DNA of 64,000 nt from Bacteroidota bacterium (GTDB lineage Bacteria > Bacteroidota > Bacteroidia > B-17B0 > Aurantibacillaceae). The notes beneath the pieces were generated by a model. It made no database searches. It had not been told where the DNA came from and was given only the letters and a program-made list of their open reading frames with translations. Made by a program: the position numbers and the translations under genes. Shown in pieces: positions 26,795 through 36,637 of this stretch. Each line of letters begins with the position of its first letter. Position 1 is the first letter of the stretch. The DNA lies in assembly GCA_016185125.1 (NCBI GenBank), contig JACPOC010000032.1:62001-126000 (forward strand), in the 5' to 3' direction.

Positions 26795-27862
26795 TTATAA
26801 ATTAACTCTTAATCCAAAAGTATGTGTTCCTCCGAATGGATTTGTAAAGCGATAAGAATAATCCACACCCACTGTTGATTTTTTATCATTAAAAGGTATT
26901 TCAAAAGTTACGCCTGCGCAGGGTCCTGTAAAAACCGTACGGCGGGTATCAGGGCTAAAAATTCCTTTTTCCGTGTACATGCCCGCTCTCAGCATTAACA
27001 TTTCCTTATAGGAATATTCTGCCCCAATTAAATAATTATCATAAGTAAATGAGTTAGAGGTATAGGTAGCATTGAGGGATAAACGTTGTTTTTTTGAGCG
27101 CCCTGTACTGTCTTTTAACAGGTAAAAGTCGTAGGAAGTACCAATGTTAACCAGAGCCGGTAATTCAAAAGCACCTGAACGATTATTAACTGTTAACTCA
27201 TAATTATTGCCATATTTTACAGTAGATTGGCGGCTTAAACCATCGCCGCGGTAAGTCATTTTAGGTCCCAGGTTTTTAATGGAAATACCAATATGAATTT
27301 GGTCGTATTTACCGGTGTGGTACTGAATACCAGCATCAATGGCCAAACCTCTGGCCGCCACGTTAGGAATTTGCTCACTTATAATCTTAAAATTAATTCC
27401 TCCAAAAATATTTTCAGAAAACATTTTGGCATAAGACATGCTAATGTTATAAAATGTAGGGCTATAAGTTCCTAAACCTCCTTCGGGTTGATCTTCAGTA
27501 GTAATATCAATTTTACCGCCATTAATGGAAACAATTCCTAAACCAATAGTGCCCGTTTCGCCCACACCTTGGGTTAAACCAAAACTATTAATAAAAATAT
27601 CGGTTCCCTGAAGCCAGTTAGATCGGTTAAAAATAAATTCGGTTTTACGGGTATAAGCTGTTCCCGCAATATTAAGAAACTGGGCTTCTAAACCTCGAAC
27701 TCTTGCCGAATTGGAGCCGGCCATTCCCGCATTACGGGCATAAGGATTAATTAATAATTGATTAGCTCCCGCCTGCCCGGCGCGTTCAGGATTACCTGCC
27801 TCTAAAAGCGCAGATGTAAGCAGTGCAGTGGATAATCCTAAATATTTTAAATTTTTAATCAT
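26795..27862 (-). CDS. PorV/PorQ family outer-membrane protein
   Basis: 355 residues from the chosen start MIKNLKYLGLSTALLTSALL (27862); the frame is open to an ATG at 27883 that lies inside the stop codon of the upstream gene, so the shorter form is preferred. After the signal peptide comes the family hallmark NQLLINPYARNAGMAGSNSA and then a series of amphipathic beta strands ending in an aromatic-rich strand (THTFGLRVNL), as in 14-stranded FadL-like barrels. PorV is the T9SS shuttle protein that carries cargo from the translocon to the PorU attachment complex. Here the protein is last in an operon with a TonB-dependent receptor and a large secreted protein, so it may be a dedicated paralogue for that cargo rather than the general PorV (inference). 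Confidence 0.82.
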   Translation of the reverse strand: MIKNLKYLGLSTALLTSALLEAGNPERAGQAGANQLLINPYARNAGMAGSNSARVRGLEAQFLNIAGTAYTRKTEFIFNRSNWLQGTDIFINSFGLTQGVGETGTIGLGIVSINGGKIDITTEDQPEGGLGTYSPTFYNISMSYAKMFSENIFGGINFKIISEQIPNVAARGLAIDAGIQYHTGKYDQIHIGISIKNLGPKMTYRGDGLSRQSTVKYGNNYELTVNNRSGAFELPALVNIGTSYDFYLLKDSTGRSKKQRLSLNATYTSNSFTYDNYLIGAEYSYKEMLMLRAGMYTEKGIFSPDTRRTVFTGPCAGVTFEIPFNDKKSTVGVDYSYRFTNPFGGTHTFGLRVNL

Positions 27863-27882
27863 ATAATTCTTTCTTAAAAGCA

Positions 27883-30800
27883 TTAATAACTTTGAACGTC
27901 AAGAGGTCGCATAACCCCAAACCACTTAACTATTTTCTCGCCTACTCCCGGCGCATCTATGTGAAGGATGTATAAACCACTTGCAATACTAATGTTGTTT
28001 TGGTTCTTAAGATCCCAATCCACAAAAGATAAACGTTTAGATTGAACAATATCTAATCCCGTTCCGGCCTTTCCAAGATTTACATCTTCTTGGCCACTCA
28101 CATCCCGTTTAAGGGTGCGAACCAAGGTACCGTTCATAGTAAAGATTTTGATGGTACATTTGTTTGGCAGATTAGTTATTCTCACTCTGTTGTCCACCCG
28201 TCCTGTTTCGTAAGTAGAACTTCCATAATAAGGATTTGGAACCACTTTAATAAGATCTAATGCGTTTTTTTGTACAGATGCCTGATTAAACAACGTGGCT
28301 ATATCACTGGTATTAAATGAGTATAACGGGAAGTTATTGTTTTGCGGCGTTGAACTCACATCTGTTGTTAATAATGATGGACTATTTACAGAAGTAAATT
28401 TGTTTGTATTAATGTATTGCGATGCCGAGGTAAGTGGAGGCGTATTAATTACCCCTGAAAACCCATAACGGTAAGGCTTAGCTACATTTATCTGAATTCG
28501 AACATCCGAAGGCATTTGCGAAGGGTCACTAAATGAATAACCAGGTGCCAACATTGGCATAGAAGTCCACATAATATCCCTTTCAACAGCCCAGAAGCCT
28601 GCCATAAAATTACCGCTCGTTGGTCCTGTAAGCGAAGTTTTTGAGAAGAAATTAGAAAGTATATTCATCATTTTTTTACCATAATCGTACCTTCCCACAC
28701 CGTAATCAGCTCCATCCAATAATGGTTCCCAATTGTAAGTAGTTGTGTTACTGAATTTTGAACTTACTGAATTGCCACCAAAAACATACACAAAATGTTT
28801 CCCTCCAAAAGCGTATTGATAAGGAGCATTAAGGTTCTCTGTTGGATTCCACTTCATGTCGTTACCGTTGTTTTCTTTCTGATAGCTGTCTTCTCCAAAG
28901 GCCATATTTAAACGTTCGCCTGTTTCTAAGTTAATCGCATAACCCGGAAACCAACCCATTCCTGTTTCAGAAATAAAATTGGCGTCGCTTGCGGAAGTAC
29001 TGGAACCACTTCCCACCGCTGCTGAAACACCTTCCTTATTAACTGATTGGTGCGCTCTTGGAGCAAAAAACGGCACAAAACCCTCACTTAAGTTAGATTT
29101 TTCCTGCATTTCTAAAACCACGCATCGCGTCCATTTACTTTTATCTTTTGTGTAAACTATCAAAACACTGCCTGTTTTTCTAAGATCGCCATTATTGCCG
29201 CCGGGAACATCTTTAGGCGTGGCGGATACTCCATAATTACTCTGAAAGTAAGGATCGCTTTCCCATACTTTACCGCTAAAACCAGGTCCACCAATAACAC
29301 GTAAGCCAAAACGATAAAAAGAACCTGTTAAAGGATAGGGCGACCAAGTTCCCCCTAAAATTTTGCCGAATTGTTTTTGCGGATCGTAAAATGCTCCGTT
29401 TGCCCCATAGTTAGCATCCTCGTTTCCAACAGCTTTATTATTGCCGGATAATATCCAATTAAACGGGCTTGTTCCATCCGCATCAGCTATAGGACTTAAC
29501 CAGTTAGCGGCACCATTTACATACGAAATACTTGCTCCGATAAACGATCCAGGCTCGGGGCCAGTATAATCAGAATTAAGAGTATTATAATTGGTTAAAC
29601 TGTTTAGCTTTTCGCCCGGATCGGCAATTTGCTTAATATTTAACGAAAACCCTAAATCAGGGAAGTAAAATTCATTCCCCACTTTAATGGTTTGATAAAG
29701 TGTATCCTTATAAAAAGGCGAAGTGGTGTTGGTGCTTGGAGTTGGATCGTTCGGGTAATAAGTTTTACCACCCGGGCTAAGATCTTTTAACTCCCAGCTT
29801 GTATTGTCAACATTTAATGCAGCGCTTAAAGAACCGTTGCCGGTAGCTGTATTGTTGGATCCCGTAGCAACCGAAGGCATTGCATTGATAGAGGTTTGAG
29901 GAGATGCGTTAAAGAATCGGGAATTTATAAATCTGAAAGTAAAATTCGCGTCCTTTACGTTTAAAGGGTCCACCACACGAATGGTTAAAGGCCCTTGAGC
30001 ATTTTCGTAAGTGATCTTATCTTTAAAGAAATTATTTACAATTTCATCTTCTGAAGCCGGTGTAAGGGTTAACTTGTTGCCTCCATTACCCTGACCCTCA
30101 ATTCTGGTTATTTTAGGACCAAATCCATAAGCGGATTGCGTAGCGGTGCCATCCTTCTCCATATCTGTATTGTGTGGTATGCCTGCGGCACGCTTGATTT
30201 TACGGCCTTCTAAATACGGGCGTTTTTGGCCTAAAAAGTTAGCTGCCTGATTTACAGATGGAGAAACGTCCGGAGCATAAGTTAAATAATTATTATACGC
30301 ATAGGCCACGGCCAAAAAATAATAAGTTTTATTATTCACCAATTTTCTGTTTGTACTAGTAGAGAAGGCATCATCGGTAACCCTGAATGTAGAGGTTATT
30401 CCGTTGTTAGCTCCTTCCACCATAATCTTAGGAACTACTGCTCCTATGGCGTTATCTTGAACGTAATTAACCAATCGGGTAACATTGTTTCTTAAATCTG
30501 TTTGAAAAACCGGAATGGCTTTTGTTCTGTCGGAAAGATCAGTAGAAGTTACTTTATCATCTTTAACTTGATAAACCACATATCCTTCAAACTTATAAAA
30601 CTTATCAGGATTACTTAAAGCCTGCACAGTAGAAGTTGGATCGGAAAGAATGGAAATATCTTCTTCGTTGTAATCATTATTAAATACTTTGTAGTTGTTA
30701 GAACCTTTTTTATTGGTTAAATAAATAATAAGTTCGTTGTTTGTCTCCTGAACGGTTAAATCGGGAGCTTCCGGCCCATCTAATAATTTAAAACAATTAT

Positions 30801-32331
30801 TAAACAGAGCCTGTGCTTTATCATCGGCCACTTTTAATAGTTTAACAGACTCTATGTATCCGCCTTTGGTTGGACTTTGTGCCCAAGGCATACCAAATGT
30901 AATATCGTTTACAGCACCAGGCTTAAGCGTAAAAGGACCTGCGGATTGAAGAAAACGGCGGTCGCCGGGAAGATTACCCGCACTTTTTTCTGTCCAACCG
31001 GTTCCCGCAACAGGGTCTCCATCGTAAACAAACTGAGAAGGAGCAGTGCCACCATAAGCATTACCGCCTTGTGTAAAAGGAGAACCGTCTTTCCAAAATC
31101 CTGTCATAAAATTATAATAATGTATGGCTAAGTCAGGATTAGTAGTTTGGGGAGGGAAAGCACCTATGTTATTGTTATAATAGGTAAAACGGCTCATTTG
31201 AATAGATTCACCCGGCTCATCTATTCCACTAAATGGCAAACCGGTTCCGTTATCAAAATCATTATCAATTCCGTCATTTGGGTCTGCTAAAGGGCCTTTA
31301 AAAAAGTCGCAGCCTAAAGCAGGAGGAAAATCTTGGTATCCGTTGGTTCCGCCGGCAGTTTCATCAAATGGGTCGGCATTGTAAATATAACCTAAACCAC
31401 GGGAAACGTCACAACCCACATAATCATCCAAATAATATCCAAGATCGGCATCATTCCAGATGGTAAAATAAGTACTATTTAAAGAGTAAGAAGAGCGGTT
31501 ATGAACCTGGTAGCTGTAAAAGGTCATGTTGTTAATTTCATCGTTGGTTTTAAAAGCAAAAGCCTGTGCCCGTACTTCTACTCCAATGGCAATACCACTG
31601 GATTCTGTGTGAATACCGCCGTTATCGTTAAACACCCAAAATAAAGTATTATCGCCATACAATTTGGTTTTACAAAAGCCTAAATTATCCTTTTCAGCAA
31701 GATTTTTAACATCGTAGGCGGGATAATCTCCGGTAGTGGGGTCATAATAGCCGTCTCCATCTATATCCACATAAGGCGCAAGGCTTCGGGCTTGCTTTTT
31801 GCTCACATCGCCATTACCCGGCCAAGCACTGATATTGGGTGTAACCACACCGCTGGTAACAAAATTATCCACCTCCACACGAGACATGTTAAAAATTTGA
31901 TCGTATTTGGCGCATTCTGCGGGGTCAGCCGAAGCATTGGTTGTATCTAAAGGCCCCGGCCAAAAATCTATTCCATTTTGGCGGTAAGTCATGGCAGCCA
32001 CTTTTAATTGACCACCCGCATCCAAGCCGCCCAACCATATTGAACCCGCAAAACTTGAAGAAATACCGTTAGCTTTGTTTTGCACCGCAGGCACAATATA
32101 ATAAGCATTACCTCCTCCAAAAAGATCCCACCACATATCTCCACCACTATAAATGATTGTACGAACGTTGTTTACCCACAACTCCCTACTGGCTTTAGGG
32201 CTAGAGCAACCTGCCATAATTTTCTGGCCCAATTGACCGGTGCTGCCGGCAATTCTTTCCCCTGCCGCTTTTTCTTTGGCATTAAAGGATGCCGCCGATA
32301 AAATGCTTAGTAATATTATTATTTTTTTCAT
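27883..32331 (-). CDS. Very large secreted protein with T9SS type A-like C-terminus, middle gene of the receptor operon
   Basis: 1482 residues from the chosen start MKKIIILLSILSAASFNAK (32331), 16 bases after the receptor stop; an ATG at 32358 overlaps the receptor gene and is rejected. No cysteine-rich or catalytic motif is recognised. The N-terminal third contains Asp/Asn/Gly-rich calcium-site-like segments (VDIDGDGYYDPTTGDYPAYD, DPNDGIDNDFDNGTG). The last ~90 residues resemble a type A sorting domain (VVPNPYYGSSTYETG, CTIKIFTMNGTLVRTL, SGLYILHIDAPGVGEKIVKW) but continue into GVMRPLDVQSY, an ending I associate with proteins encoded beside TonB receptors and PorV-like genes. It is probably secreted by T9SS and held at the surface. 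Function unknown. Confidence 0.82.
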   Translation of the reverse strand: MKKIIILLSILSAASFNAKEKAAGERIAGSTGQLGQKIMAGCSSPKASRELWVNNVRTIIYSGGDMWWDLFGGGNAYYIVPAVQNKANGISSSFAGSIWLGGLDAGGQLKVAAMTYRQNGIDFWPGPLDTTNASADPAECAKYDQIFNMSRVEVDNFVTSGVVTPNISAWPGNGDVSKKQARSLAPYVDIDGDGYYDPTTGDYPAYDVKNLAEKDNLGFCKTKLYGDNTLFWVFNDNGGIHTESSGIAIGVEVRAQAFAFKTNDEINNMTFYSYQVHNRSSYSLNSTYFTIWNDADLGYYLDDYVGCDVSRGLGYIYNADPFDETAGGTNGYQDFPPALGCDFFKGPLADPNDGIDNDFDNGTGLPFSGIDEPGESIQMSRFTYYNNNIGAFPPQTTNPDLAIHYYNFMTGFWKDGSPFTQGGNAYGGTAPSQFVYDGDPVAGTGWTEKSAGNLPGDRRFLQSAGPFTLKPGAVNDITFGMPWAQSPTKGGYIESVKLLKVADDKAQALFNNCFKLLDGPEAPDLTVQETNNELIIYLTNKKGSNNYKVFNNDYNEEDISILSDPTSTVQALSNPDKFYKFEGYVVYQVKDDKVTSTDLSDRTKAIPVFQTDLRNNVTRLVNYVQDNAIGAVVPKIMVEGANNGITSTFRVTDDAFSTSTNRKLVNNKTYYFLAVAYAYNNYLTYAPDVSPSVNQAANFLGQKRPYLEGRKIKRAAGIPHNTDMEKDGTATQSAYGFGPKITRIEGQGNGGNKLTLTPASEDEIVNNFFKDKITYENAQGPLTIRVVDPLNVKDANFTFRFINSRFFNASPQTSINAMPSVATGSNNTATGNGSLSAALNVDNTSWELKDLSPGGKTYYPNDPTPSTNTTSPFYKDTLYQTIKVGNEFYFPDLGFSLNIKQIADPGEKLNSLTNYNTLNSDYTGPEPGSFIGASISYVNGAANWLSPIADADGTSPFNWILSGNNKAVGNEDANYGANGAFYDPQKQFGKILGGTWSPYPLTGSFYRFGLRVIGGPGFSGKVWESDPYFQSNYGVSATPKDVPGGNNGDLRKTGSVLIVYTKDKSKWTRCVVLEMQEKSNLSEGFVPFFAPRAHQSVNKEGVSAAVGSGSSTSASDANFISETGMGWFPGYAINLETGERLNMAFGEDSYQKENNGNDMKWNPTENLNAPYQYAFGGKHFVYVFGGNSVSSKFSNTTTYNWEPLLDGADYGVGRYDYGKKMMNILSNFFSKTSLTGPTSGNFMAGFWAVERDIMWTSMPMLAPGYSFSDPSQMPSDVRIQINVAKPYRYGFSGVINTPPLTSASQYINTNKFTSVNSPSLLTTDVSSTPQNNNFPLYSFNTSDIATLFNQASVQKNALDLIKVVPNPYYGSSTYETGRVDNRVRITNLPNKCTIKIFTMNGTLVRTLKRDVSGQEDVNLGKAGTGLDIVQSKRLSFVDWDLKNQNNISIASGLYILHIDAPGVGEKIVKWFGVMRPLDVQSY

Positions 32332-32347
32332 GATATTCCTCCTTTTA

Positions 32348-35300
32348 TTAAAACTCAAACATTAAACCAATACGAATTTGACGCGGTAAATTATAATTTG
32401 CAGGGCTGTTAACACGGATGCTGTACATATCTCTGTATGCAGCCGCGCTATTAGCCAAAGCCAATGAAGACTGAGCCTGTGTAGAAGTTAAATACCCGTC
32501 ATCTTCAGGGTTTCCGGTATAATTATACACATTTAAAATATTTCTGGTGTTAAACAGGTTAAGTACCTGTACATACACATTTAAGTTAGCTGTTTTCTTA
32601 TTTTCAGCATCTTTCTTTCCAAAGCTTAAAGGAATGTTTTTATCTATACGTAAGTTAGTTCTGAAATTCCAAGGCTTAGATGAGCCGTTAATTTGGCCAA
32701 GGATGCTTGAACGACCGTTTCCGCCTTGCGTAGGAACCGCGGAACTCCAACGGGTATATGGCGTACCTGATCCTAAAAGGAAAGAAAGGTTAAAGCCAAC
32801 ATCTTCAAAAATACGAAGGGTTTTGTCTGATTTTGTTTTAAAGCTTGGGCCTTTGTAGTCTTTTTCAGATCCAAAACGGAAGTCGTAATTTAACACAAAA
32901 CTGTGGCGCTGATCAAAATCAAGTGGCTGAAGAACGCGCAAATTTGGCTGGCCGGATGATGCTAAGTTAGCTCCCGAGTTTGCGTTTGAGCCTGAACCTT
33001 CGGCAAATTGTAAGGTATAGTTAGCATTAACGCGCGAACCGCCTGTTCTGCGGAAGTCAAATATAAACGATAAACCTTTTACGGTACCAAAATCAATGTT
33101 ATCATACATAATGTAGGTTTTAGGATATGCTCCCACAATCTGCTTTTGATTAATCATATTACGCATTTCTCTATAAAAAGAAGTGATGGTTAAAGAAGCG
33201 TTTTTGCGCTCATTTAAAACCTGCTGAAAACCTAATTCATAATCAATAGTTTGTTGCGGACGCTGATTGGCATTATTAATTAGGGGAGAAGAGCTGGCTG
33301 CTTCCATAAAATAATAATCAAGCGGGCTTAAAACACTGTTAGTTGGGCGCTGTGTAAGAATGTCGTAGTGCGCAAAGAAATTAGCTACATCGGATATTGG
33401 GAAGGAAAAAGCAATTCTTGGCATGGCATTGATGGCAGCGGCGTAATCGGTAAATCCGCCGGCTGACATTTTTTTATCGTAATTCGCTCTGTCTTTAAAT
33501 AAGGGAATAGGGCGTCCGTCGGCCGAGGCGATGAGTGAGGGGTCGGAAATTTCGTTTCCTTCCGAGTCAAACCATTTATCACCTTCTCTAAATCCTCTGA
33601 TGGAAAGCGGTGATTTTCCTCCTGAAGGGTTTTGAGCAACGTAAACAGCCGCGTCTTTGGAAATGCTGGACGGGATATTTTCGCTGAAGCCTGCGGGTAA
33701 GTAATCCAATGATTTAAGATCGCCTACTTTTGCAAGATCATGTAAAGCGTATTTATCTTTTAATACCGGCTGATTGGCATCATATCTATCTATACGTAAT
33801 CCGGCGTTAAATTTAATGTCTTTAAAATCAAATTTATCCATGATGTAAACCGAAGCGTAAATAGGCTGAAAAGATCCTACAGAGAACATGTTCCGTCCGG
33901 CGGCGTCTTTTTTCTCCAGAAAGTCGGTAATGTTGGTTTTTCCATTAACTTTTACACCTTGAGCGGTAAAGCCACTGTAATCTACTAAACTGGTTTGAGA
34001 ACTGTTATCCAGTAAATCGGTGGCGCTGAACATATCCATTGAAAAAGTGGAAGGATCCAGGGCATCAATATTAGGAACGCCTTTGTAATCTTTAGGAAGG
34101 CCTAATTTTTCTAACAGTTTTTCTGAGAATTGCGTTTGCTTTTCAGCTTGGTATTGGCGCTCATAATAATAATAGGGCACTAAGCCTGAAAATTCAGGAA
34201 CTGCAATTGGATTTGTTTTATCTAATGAACTAATATGAAAATCAGCTAATTGGCGCATCCGTTGCCATAAGCCCAAAGCATCTAAAACGTTATAGGAACT
34301 AACTGTTCTTTTGTCAAATTCCAAGCCAAAAGTTAAGGCATGATTTTTTATATCTGCATTAAAGCTCGAAGCTATACGAAATTGCTCTTGAATCTGCTTA
34401 AGCGAACTTCTTGGGCTGGTGCCGAAATTACTGTATAAACTATAAATGGATTGCGGGTTATCGCCGTTTCTTAAACCATTATTAGAAGCAATGTAATTTA
34501 AATTTATAAAACTGTTGGCAGGAGAATTGGCCATTAAATAACTGGTATAAAGTGCCGCATCGGGATTAAGGGTTCCGGGAGTAAACTGCACATTACCCAC
34601 TTCTCTTTCGCCCTGATATTCGTAAGCATTAATGGTATTGCCGTTGTAAACAAACTCATTGTTAAAATCATAATTGTAAGCAAAATCACGGCCGGCAATG
34701 GTTTTATCAAATTTTCCTACATAACCGTAATTAAAATACTTATCCTTATGCTTGGCGCTTTGTGTTACATCTTTTTTGTTTTCATAACTTACTAAAAATC
34801 TAAAAAAAGCGTTGGAAATTAAAGATTGTGTTTTTTCTTTATTAGGGGTTGCGTTTTTAAATTTTTGGGTAATTGATAAGTTAACACGACCGGATCTGCC
34901 GCTGGTTTTAGAGTTGTTATTGGAGTTTAATAATTGATTACCGGCGCTTGCATTAAAATAATCGACATATTCATAAAACCCACCTAAGGTAATGTTGGTA
35001 TTGGGTGTAGGTGCAAAATCCACTTTTCCGTTAAGAGAGAGCAATCTTGAAGCCGCATTAGGCCTAAATTTCTGCGTTTTCATATCATCTTTGGTCAGAA
35101 ATTCTGAAGATTTAATAAAACCGGTTCCAGAAGGTGAGGGTTGAAGAGGGGCATCCTTTAACTCCTGTAATTTGGCATCTTTTATAACATAAATTGGCAC
35201 AAATGAGGGAGTAGGTTCTTTAACATAATTTCCTTGTCCCGAAACGAAAAACCCAACTACGGTACGTTTGGTAGAATCTTTTTTCTTCCAAATAGGCCCG

Positions 35301-36073
35301 CCCACGCTAAAACCTAAGGAATTGTAACCGTAAGGATCGGTAAGCTGGGATGAAATTAATTCAACCCCGCCAAAATATTTTGATTGAGGCCCGCGTGTGG
35401 AGATAGAAATAGCTCCTGAAGTTAAATCTCCGTATTGAGCGGGAATACCGCCGGTTATTACGTTTAGCTGCTCAATGGATTGCTGTGGAAGATTTGGTGA
35501 ACCAAAAACCTTCACTCCATCCACAAAATATGTAGTATTTCCGCTGCGTCCGCCGCGTACGTTAATAGCTTTACCTTCATCCGCCTGATAAACACCCGCA
35601 GTTGTAGCTGCAACCGAGTTAACATCTTTGGTTGCAAGGTTCTGATAATCTTCGCGGGTAACTGTTTGGCCGGATTTTGTATCCGGATCGATTAATGGAA
35701 CCTGATAAGTTACAACTTCTACTTCATCTAACTTTACACCTTCCCCGTTTGAAAGTCCGATGGGTACATAAGCGGTTTTACCGTCGCCCACCACAACATC
35801 CTTCATTTCGGCTGCCTGATAGCCTACATAAACTCCTTTTACGGAATATTTACCCGGCTCCAGCGGCTTAATAGTGGCAACTCCATCCATATCGGTGGTA
35901 GCCACCCCAACTTGCACCCCATCTTTATACGCAACTACATTGGCAAAGGGAATAGCCTCTTTAGTAGTTTTATCGATGAGCGTAATTTTAATGGCGCCAT
36001 TGCCAGTCTGGGCTATAGCCGCTAACCCAGTTAAAACTACTAATACCACGGTGAAGTAAATGTTCTTTATCAT
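32348..36073 (-). CDS. TonB-dependent receptor with N-terminal carboxypeptidase-regulatory-like domain
   Basis: 1241 residues with a signal peptide (MIKNIYFTVVLVVLTGLAAIAQ). Residues ~25-105 form a CarboxypepD_reg-like beta-sandwich (AIPFANVVAYKDGVQVGVAT). Residues ~130-235 are the plug, with AINVRGGRSGNTTYFVDGVKV and IEQLNVITGGIPAQYGDLTS, and the rest is the 22-strand barrel ending in an aromatic strand (QIRIGLMFEF). Such receptors import large ligands with energy from TonB-ExbBD. No SusD gene is beside it, so it is not a standard polysaccharide-utilisation pair; its partners are a giant T9SS-type protein and a PorV/PorQ family protein. Three 21-bp-spaced repeats lie 193-242 bases upstream of its start and may control it. 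Confidence 0.93.
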   Translation of the reverse strand: MIKNIYFTVVLVVLTGLAAIAQTGNGAIKITLIDKTTKEAIPFANVVAYKDGVQVGVATTDMDGVATIKPLEPGKYSVKGVYVGYQAAEMKDVVVGDGKTAYVPIGLSNGEGVKLDEVEVVTYQVPLIDPDTKSGQTVTREDYQNLATKDVNSVAATTAGVYQADEGKAINVRGGRSGNTTYFVDGVKVFGSPNLPQQSIEQLNVITGGIPAQYGDLTSGAISISTRGPQSKYFGGVELISSQLTDPYGYNSLGFSVGGPIWKKKDSTKRTVVGFFVSGQGNYVKEPTPSFVPIYVIKDAKLQELKDAPLQPSPSGTGFIKSSEFLTKDDMKTQKFRPNAASRLLSLNGKVDFAPTPNTNITLGGFYEYVDYFNASAGNQLLNSNNNSKTSGRSGRVNLSITQKFKNATPNKEKTQSLISNAFFRFLVSYENKKDVTQSAKHKDKYFNYGYVGKFDKTIAGRDFAYNYDFNNEFVYNGNTINAYEYQGEREVGNVQFTPGTLNPDAALYTSYLMANSPANSFINLNYIASNNGLRNGDNPQSIYSLYSNFGTSPRSSLKQIQEQFRIASSFNADIKNHALTFGLEFDKRTVSSYNVLDALGLWQRMRQLADFHISSLDKTNPIAVPEFSGLVPYYYYERQYQAEKQTQFSEKLLEKLGLPKDYKGVPNIDALDPSTFSMDMFSATDLLDNSSQTSLVDYSGFTAQGVKVNGKTNITDFLEKKDAAGRNMFSVGSFQPIYASVYIMDKFDFKDIKFNAGLRIDRYDANQPVLKDKYALHDLAKVGDLKSLDYLPAGFSENIPSSISKDAAVYVAQNPSGGKSPLSIRGFREGDKWFDSEGNEISDPSLIASADGRPIPLFKDRANYDKKMSAGGFTDYAAAINAMPRIAFSFPISDVANFFAHYDILTQRPTNSVLSPLDYYFMEAASSSPLINNANQRPQQTIDYELGFQQVLNERKNASLTITSFYREMRNMINQKQIVGAYPKTYIMYDNIDFGTVKGLSFIFDFRRTGGSRVNANYTLQFAEGSGSNANSGANLASSGQPNLRVLQPLDFDQRHSFVLNYDFRFGSEKDYKGPSFKTKSDKTLRIFEDVGFNLSFLLGSGTPYTRWSSAVPTQGGNGRSSILGQINGSSKPWNFRTNLRIDKNIPLSFGKKDAENKKTANLNVYVQVLNLFNTRNILNVYNYTGNPEDDGYLTSTQAQSSLALANSAAAYRDMYSIRVNSPANYNLPRQIRIGLMFEF

Positions 36074-36265
36074 ATTGTTAAATTACCTTAAATATTATAT
36101 CATTAAATTGCTAAAATTATGAAGGCTAAATCTATATTCAAAAAAAAAGTTAATACATTTTGTTAACGTGCTTAAAATCAATAAATTATATTTTAATCGT
36201 TATTAAATTTTATAATGTTAATACGAATTTAGGGATAAAGTGTTAAAAATATTTTAACAATTTAA

Positions 36266-36315
36266 AAGTGGTAGAAAAAATTGTATAAGTGGTAGGTTTT
36301 TAGGAATAAGTGGTA
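36266..36315. promoter_or_regulatory. Three direct repeats of AAGTGGTA at exact 21-bp spacing, candidate response-regulator operator
   Basis: AAGTGGTA(G) occurs at 36266-36274, 36287-36295 and 36308-36315 (on the minus strand, TACCACTT). Both intervals are exactly 21 bp, two helical turns, so the copies face the same side of the DNA. A degenerate fourth copy (AAGTGTTA) is at 36238-36245, but 28 bp away. The array starts immediately after the stop codon of the basic protein gene and lies upstream of the receptor operon. Short direct repeats at ~21-bp spacing are the known geometry of LytTR-domain regulators. That assignment is inference. Confidence 0.6.
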
Positions 36316-36319
36316 AAAA

Positions 36320-36637
36320 CTACACTTTCTTTTTTTTGGTAAACCAACGCTTTAGGAAGAACTCCCTCTTATTTTCATTGTTTTGATTAGCGCGTTTCTT
36401 GCTTTTTTTCATGCGCTTTTGCACATCTTTGGTTTGAATGCGCTTATGGTGGGCCTTAATGGCTTTTCGTTCGGCTTTTTCTTTTTTTCTTCTCTCGCGC
36501 GCTTCTTTTCTATCTAATTTACGAAGTTTGCGGGCACTGGCCTCTGATTTAACTTTTGGCCCCGTGCCTTTTTCCTGTGCCAAAGAAGGCACCAAGAAGC
36601 TCATTAAGAGAATTAACAGGATGGATTTAATTTTCAC
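36320..36637 (-). CDS. Small, extremely basic exported protein
   Basis: 105 residues: a signal peptide (MKIKSILLILLMSFLVPSLA) and a mature part of ~85 residues of which I count 24 Lys and 12 Arg (about 42 percent), with almost no hydrophobic core until FFLKRWFTKKKKV at the end. The middle looks helical (RKEARERRKKEKAERKAIKA). The start overlaps the end of the dCMP deaminase gene by 11 bases, so it is translationally coupled to it. A cationic exported helix could bind anionic surface glycans, nucleic acid or LPS, but no function is established. The signal peptide argues against a cytoplasmic nucleoid protein. Confidence 0.7.
   Translation of the reverse strand: MKIKSILLILLMSFLVPSLAQEKGTGPKVKSEASARKLRKLDRKEARERRKKEKAERKAIKAHHKRIQTKDVQKRMKKSKKRANQNNENKREFFLKRWFTKKKKV

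Follow-up and report, generated by a model that had tools for sequence, protein, structure and literature searches.

The analysed stretch of 64,000 nucleotides (the window) comes from a 3.34-Mb metagenome-assembled genome (MAG) of 59 contigs, G000, and carries on its minus strand a tightly coupled trio of genes (26795-36073) that overlap one another by a few bases. The first gene of this operon encodes a 1241-aa TonB-dependent receptor, recognised by its Plug and CarboxypepD_reg domain matches (32348..36073). It overlaps the gene for a 1491-aa exported protein without a match in Pfam or NCBIfam (27883..32358), which in turn overlaps the gene for a PorV/PorQ-family outer-membrane protein (26795..27883; NF033709, E 2.3e-41), and both are presumed to be co-transcribed with the receptor gene. 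Upstream of the receptor lies a minus-strand gene for a 105-aa basic protein (36320..36637). An Rfam search of the window returned tRNA only.

The region between the basic-protein and receptor genes contains three copies of the octamer TACCACTT on the minus strand (36266-36273, 36287-36294 and 36308-36315). An earlier note on this DNA gave a period of 21 bp between their starts and a distance of 193-242 bp to the receptor start downstream (36073). Both the coordinates and the period proved exact, and one end of the array is 4 bp past the stop codon of the basic-protein gene. It is best described as three 9-bp half-sites in a strict 21-bp register, ACCACTTAT-N12-ACCACTTAT-N12-ACCACTTTT, running on the minus strand from 36314 down to 36264. 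The promoter-distal half-site 1, ACCACTTAT (36306..36314), occupies the -244 position, where the genus consensus is roughly NCCA[ACT]TTAT. Half-site 2, also ACCACTTAT (36285..36293), is nearly invariant in the alignment of relatives, and the promoter-proximal half-site 3, ACCACTTTT (36264..36272), is ACCACATTT-like in many of them. Because the basic-protein gene is on the same strand, the array can serve the receptor side only, and the order and overlap of the three genes suggest that it would control the whole cassette.

Downstream of the half-sites the alignment of 5' regions revealed a conserved TGTTAA and a weak -33 region of the receptor promoter (36251..36259, minus strand), the latter positioned by the 19-bp distance to the -7 box that the Bacteroides rule gives (PMC6193735). 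The -7 box itself, TAAATTCG (36224..36231, minus strand; consensus TAnnTTTG), lies 41 nt after the start of half-site 3, and relatives have TAAnTTT(G/A) in the same place. A weaker fourth copy, TAACACTT (36238..36245, minus strand), had been proposed as a further member of the array. We do not count it as a half-site: it is 28 bp away and out of register, sits inside the core promoter with the -33 region on one side and the -7 box on the other, and relatives do not conserve it.

The spaced pair of half-sites is far more frequent than chance and lies mostly 5' of open reading frames. The pattern RCCASTTAT-N12-RCCASTT has seven exact matches in G000, extended in phase by several one-mismatch matches, and nearly all pair matches in this genome are intergenic and aimed at a gene start. 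Across 40 genomes of the genus there were 88 exact matches, compared to one for a reversed-pattern control. When the spacer was left free between 4 and 20 bp, 72 of 95 matches had a 12-bp spacer while the 16 remaining spacings totalled 23 (1.4 on average), a genus-wide preference of about 50-fold. Outside the genus the pattern was at background in nearly all genomes. Three further hits, C59:68620, C18:154827 and C23:60632, were rejected as targets, being coding, at a gene end or weak, and having no phased -7 box. In-phase 21-bp tandem repeats of the ATCACTTTCTAAGACCTC type at G000:C43:78037-78211 mimic the operator period and may be the 7-residue repeat of a coding region.

Pairs of a LytTR regulator and a propeller kinase are common in Bacteroidota. 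G000 encodes six LytTR proteins, and sites were found near only one of them, the response regulator P0001 (G000:C15:140877-141620), whose gene is just beyond the edge of the window, at 43 kb from the array. P0001 combines a receiver domain (PF00072, E 2.4e-20) with a LytTR domain (PF04397, E 8.1e-16). Its partner, encoded directly upstream, is a propeller-type kinase with PF06580 (His_kinase), Y_Y_Y and Reg_prop domains; with such a kinase in the same operon, the locus has the make-up of a LytS/LytTR two-component system. Sites stand on both flanks, an array ~100 bp 5' of the kinase gene and a pair 41 bp past the P0001 stop codon. In G000 the kinase gene (L055:11990-14832) is split by a frameshift into two overlapping open reading frames, which is either a MAG error or a recent lesion, since it is a single frame in relatives. 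P0001 orthologs of 69-89% identity are present in about 34 of the 40 genomes; the orthologous loci that we inspected have a kinase-sized open reading frame directly upstream of the regulator, and for most orthologs sites precede the kinase or follow the regulator, or stand in both places. No comparable arrays surround the more distant homologs of the regulator (Pedobacter and others, 34-48% identity).

The evidence of this analysis is comparative throughout and comes for the most part from MAGs. Of the 40 genomes, 37 yielded a receptor ortholog, and the aligned 5' regions, the comparison that the earlier note had called for, preserve the array upstream of the receptor operons: three half-sites keep their register at about -244/-223/-202, with hardly any variation in the middle one, and in most genomes they are followed by TGTTAA and then by the TAAnTTT(G/A) -7 box. 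A pair matrix trained on sites of G000 and G002, the window's own included, and with a background maximum of 13.5, scored at least 14.4 at the receptor in all 31 genomes with the regulator and enough 5' sequence. In the three regulator-less genomes scored (G004, G005 and G024) it reached at most -2.4; the receptor is kept and the array is gone. These three form one clade among the rest in the receptor tree (midpoint root) and thus record a single co-loss, not three. Regulator-less genomes also lacked any pair with a 12-bp spacer, save one exact site in G042, a 60%-complete genome in which no P0001 ortholog was detected.

Several other genes of G000 lie behind such sites. First, the energising operon exbB-exbD-exbD-tonB is a putative target; regulator-positive genomes have its site at about -180 to -200, all four negative ones lack it, and where exbB scores fall within the background range it is the constant position, not the score, that supports them. 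Second, sites precede the gene for a SprB-repeat, type-B-sorted T9SS adhesin, followed by a PD40 protein, as well as genes for a 1150-aa T9SS protein and a DUF7793 protein. Third, two similar-looking ~200-aa proteins (L059:2623-3276 and L060:3708-4310), one with an fn3 hit, are encoded behind sites. The genes of this pair carry LytTR arrays of up to four half-sites, and proteins of ~200-270 aa like them recur behind sites elsewhere in the genus. Adhesin-like, T9SS, ~200-aa and DUF7793-like genes are found behind sites in other genomes too, going by visual inspection of their N-termini. With a consensus as the yardstick in place of mapped transcription starts, a -7-like box follows the start of the last half-site by 40-42 nt in none of the doubtful hits but in 7 of the 9 accepted targets. 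The exceptions are the fn3-a gene, whose box is only weak, and the kinase promoter, whose array in G000 is degenerate and has no clear -7 box at the expected distance.

A candidate small RNA of ~85 nt lies just 3' of the P0001 gene, outside the window (L055:15735-15816, that is G000:C15:141734-141815), and begins immediately after a -7 box. Its parts are an invariant GUUCUUU-containing tail, a weak A/U-rich hairpin that most genomes share, and a terminator hairpin whose loop, UGGAGAUU, never varies. This last hairpin shows compensatory changes in 11 of 13 pairs, far above shuffled or slid controls. Six loci searched at the gathering score gave no Rfam match, and no evident peptide is encoded. 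A covariance model, built from some of the copies that it finds and with rough E-values, detected exactly one copy in each of 27 of the 40 genomes; the five in which no regulator ortholog was detected had no copy. In 26 measurable copies the LytTR pair starts 76-77 nt before the GUUCUUU motif and 72-73 nt before the model start, and this spacing is kept where the RNA no longer lies beside the regulator gene (G014, G015, G047, G048 and G021). The relocated RNA with its LytTR pair was seen at L339 and L325 (G015, G048), L340 (G014) and L337 (G047). Since the downstream neighbour varies, being guaB in many genomes and a convergent gene in others, the small RNA is best read as its own transcription unit. 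In G000 the small RNA was predicted to pair well with the receptor start (z -3.4), but this was not conserved over 23 genomes (mean z -0.45), and pairing with exbB or with the regulator gene was not conserved either.

The sites can be compared with a published rule, by which LytTR proteins recognise a pair of 9-11-nt direct repeats with a spacer of 11-13 nt (PMC4847170); as a rule the pair sits about 10 bp upstream of the -35 (PMC6193735). The array has 9-nt repeats and 12-nt spacers, three in a row, and about 10 bp separate the last half-site from the -33 region in 7 of 9 targets. Published repeats include ACCACTTAT-12-ACCGCTTAT for S. mutans BrsR, ACCACTTAC-12-ACCACTTAC in S. anginosus and ACCAGTTAT-12-ACCGACTAT in B. 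cereus, and binding by HdrR has been demonstrated by gel shift (PMC6193735). The earlier note knew of no described operator with this sequence, which these examples contradict. Its reading of the array as a LytTR site held up: the intergenic pair is far above chance and conserved, and the LytTR gene that it suggested looking for is present and flanked by the same sites. In sequence, spacer and promoter distance the array equals published LytTR repeats, and it reads as an operator of that type to which a third half-site has been added, on a Bacteroidota promoter.

Taken together, these comparisons make it highly probable that the array is the operator of the receptor operon, bound by P0001 as the partner of the Reg_prop/Y_Y_Y/LytS-type kinase, and that the same regulator controls the other targets and the small RNA; the co-occurrence of the sites with P0001 lends indirect support to such binding. 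At each promoter, phosphorylated P0001 would occupy two to four half-sites, all on the same face of the helix, and, with the last half-site about 10 bp 5' of the -33 region, the bound protein would help RNA polymerase to start transcription. P0001 would likewise control its own kinase-regulator operon, exbB-exbD-exbD-tonB, the SprB-repeat T9SS adhesin, other secreted or small proteins, and the ~85-nt terminator-ended RNA 3' of its own gene. Several observations count against this reading: the co-loss happened once, the kinase frame is broken in G000, G042 keeps an exact site, the kinase-promoter array of G000 is degenerate, and some exbB scores do not rise above background.

The same geometry bears on the direction of control. 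P0001 could instead act as a repressor that occupies the array when the receptor is not needed; AgrA, too, is able to repress, through a site that lies downstream of the bsaA promoter (PMC4227749). We regard this as unlikely: every array is upstream of the -33 region, its distance from it nearly constant, in the place published for LytTR activation, and none overlaps the -7 box. Binding by another of the six LytTR regulators, or by several of them, is quite improbable. LytTR sites are similar across the family and all six proteins are present, but P0001 alone is flanked by sites, in G000 and in its orthologs, and sites are absent where P0001 is missing and another LytTR-type regulator is kept (G004 and G024, about 1e-45). 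There is a very small chance that the repeats are bound by an unrelated, unlinked regulator that disappeared together with the LytTR gene. In its favour, the tree shows one co-loss event, and the genomes concerned tend to be small; against it, the site sequence, spacer and promoter distance all follow the LytTR rule and the sites flank the LytTR gene itself. Chance or compositional repeats of AT-rich intergenic DNA, to which the mild enrichment of the core octamer by itself might point (7 seen in the 64-kb window, 2.08 expected), are refuted by the reversed-pattern control, the spacer preference and the position kept across diverged genomes.

We lean towards a broader interpretation, namely a genus-wide LytTR two-component regulon of uncultured Bacteroidota. 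It would tie TonB energisation, T9SS surface proteins and a TonB receptor/PorV-family operon to a trans-acting small RNA not recorded before, and its layout would be agr-like, with an autoregulated operon and a regulatory RNA under the same operator. The case also suggests that receptor supply (the TonB-dependent receptor), energy supply (ExbB-ExbD-TonB) and surface adhesins are switched jointly, as one unit. Here an operator and a regulator come with a promoter geometry, a list of targets and a candidate small RNA, all open to testing together.

The type of operator is already known. In literature searches the octamer TACCACTT led to unrelated papers, apparently by chance sequence matches, and the 9-mer ACCACTTAT to PMC6193735 only; no operator assigned to a Bacteroidota LytTR/propeller-kinase pair was found. 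As far as these searches show, what is new is the assignment to such a pair, the set of receptor, TonB and T9SS targets, and the attached small RNA.

Among known systems, the half-sites are matched by those of S. mutans BrsR/HdrR and related LytTR Regulatory Systems (LRS). These are autoregulatory, and their 9-bp direct repeats, ACCACTTAT/ACCTCTTAG, have 12-bp spacers and end about 10 bp short of the -35 (PMC6193735). Those repeats come as pairs and their regulators are held by a membrane inhibitor protein. The arrays here comprise two to four half-sites on Bacteroidota promoters, go with a two-component system whose kinase is of the propeller type, and serve different targets. With a receiver domain and a histidine-kinase partner instead of a membrane inhibitor, P0001 does not belong to the S. 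mutans-type LRS. An 'LRS-like' operon of B. thetaiotaomicron also has repeats 11 bp before a TGTA-19-TATCTTTG promoter (PMC6193735, Table 3), but they are 11-bp repeats (TCCGGTATTCA/ACCGGAAATCA) and go with a membrane-anchored regulator and no receptor regulon. E. coli YpdA/YpdB, with GGCATTTCAT repeats at PyhjX (PMC4847170), shares the LytS-like kinase, the LytTR regulator and repeats about two helical turns apart, and differs in its half-site sequence, its targets and in having only two half-sites. In S. aureus agr (AgrA; P2 operon, P3 RNAIII; PMC4227749) the kinase is of a different type; the RNA here is ~85 nt and unrelated, and no peptide-signal genes were seen. We claim no membership of the agr family, and the resemblance is one of layout: in both, a LytTR two-component regulator has repeats upstream of its own operon and, apparently, also upstream of a neighbouring regulatory RNA.
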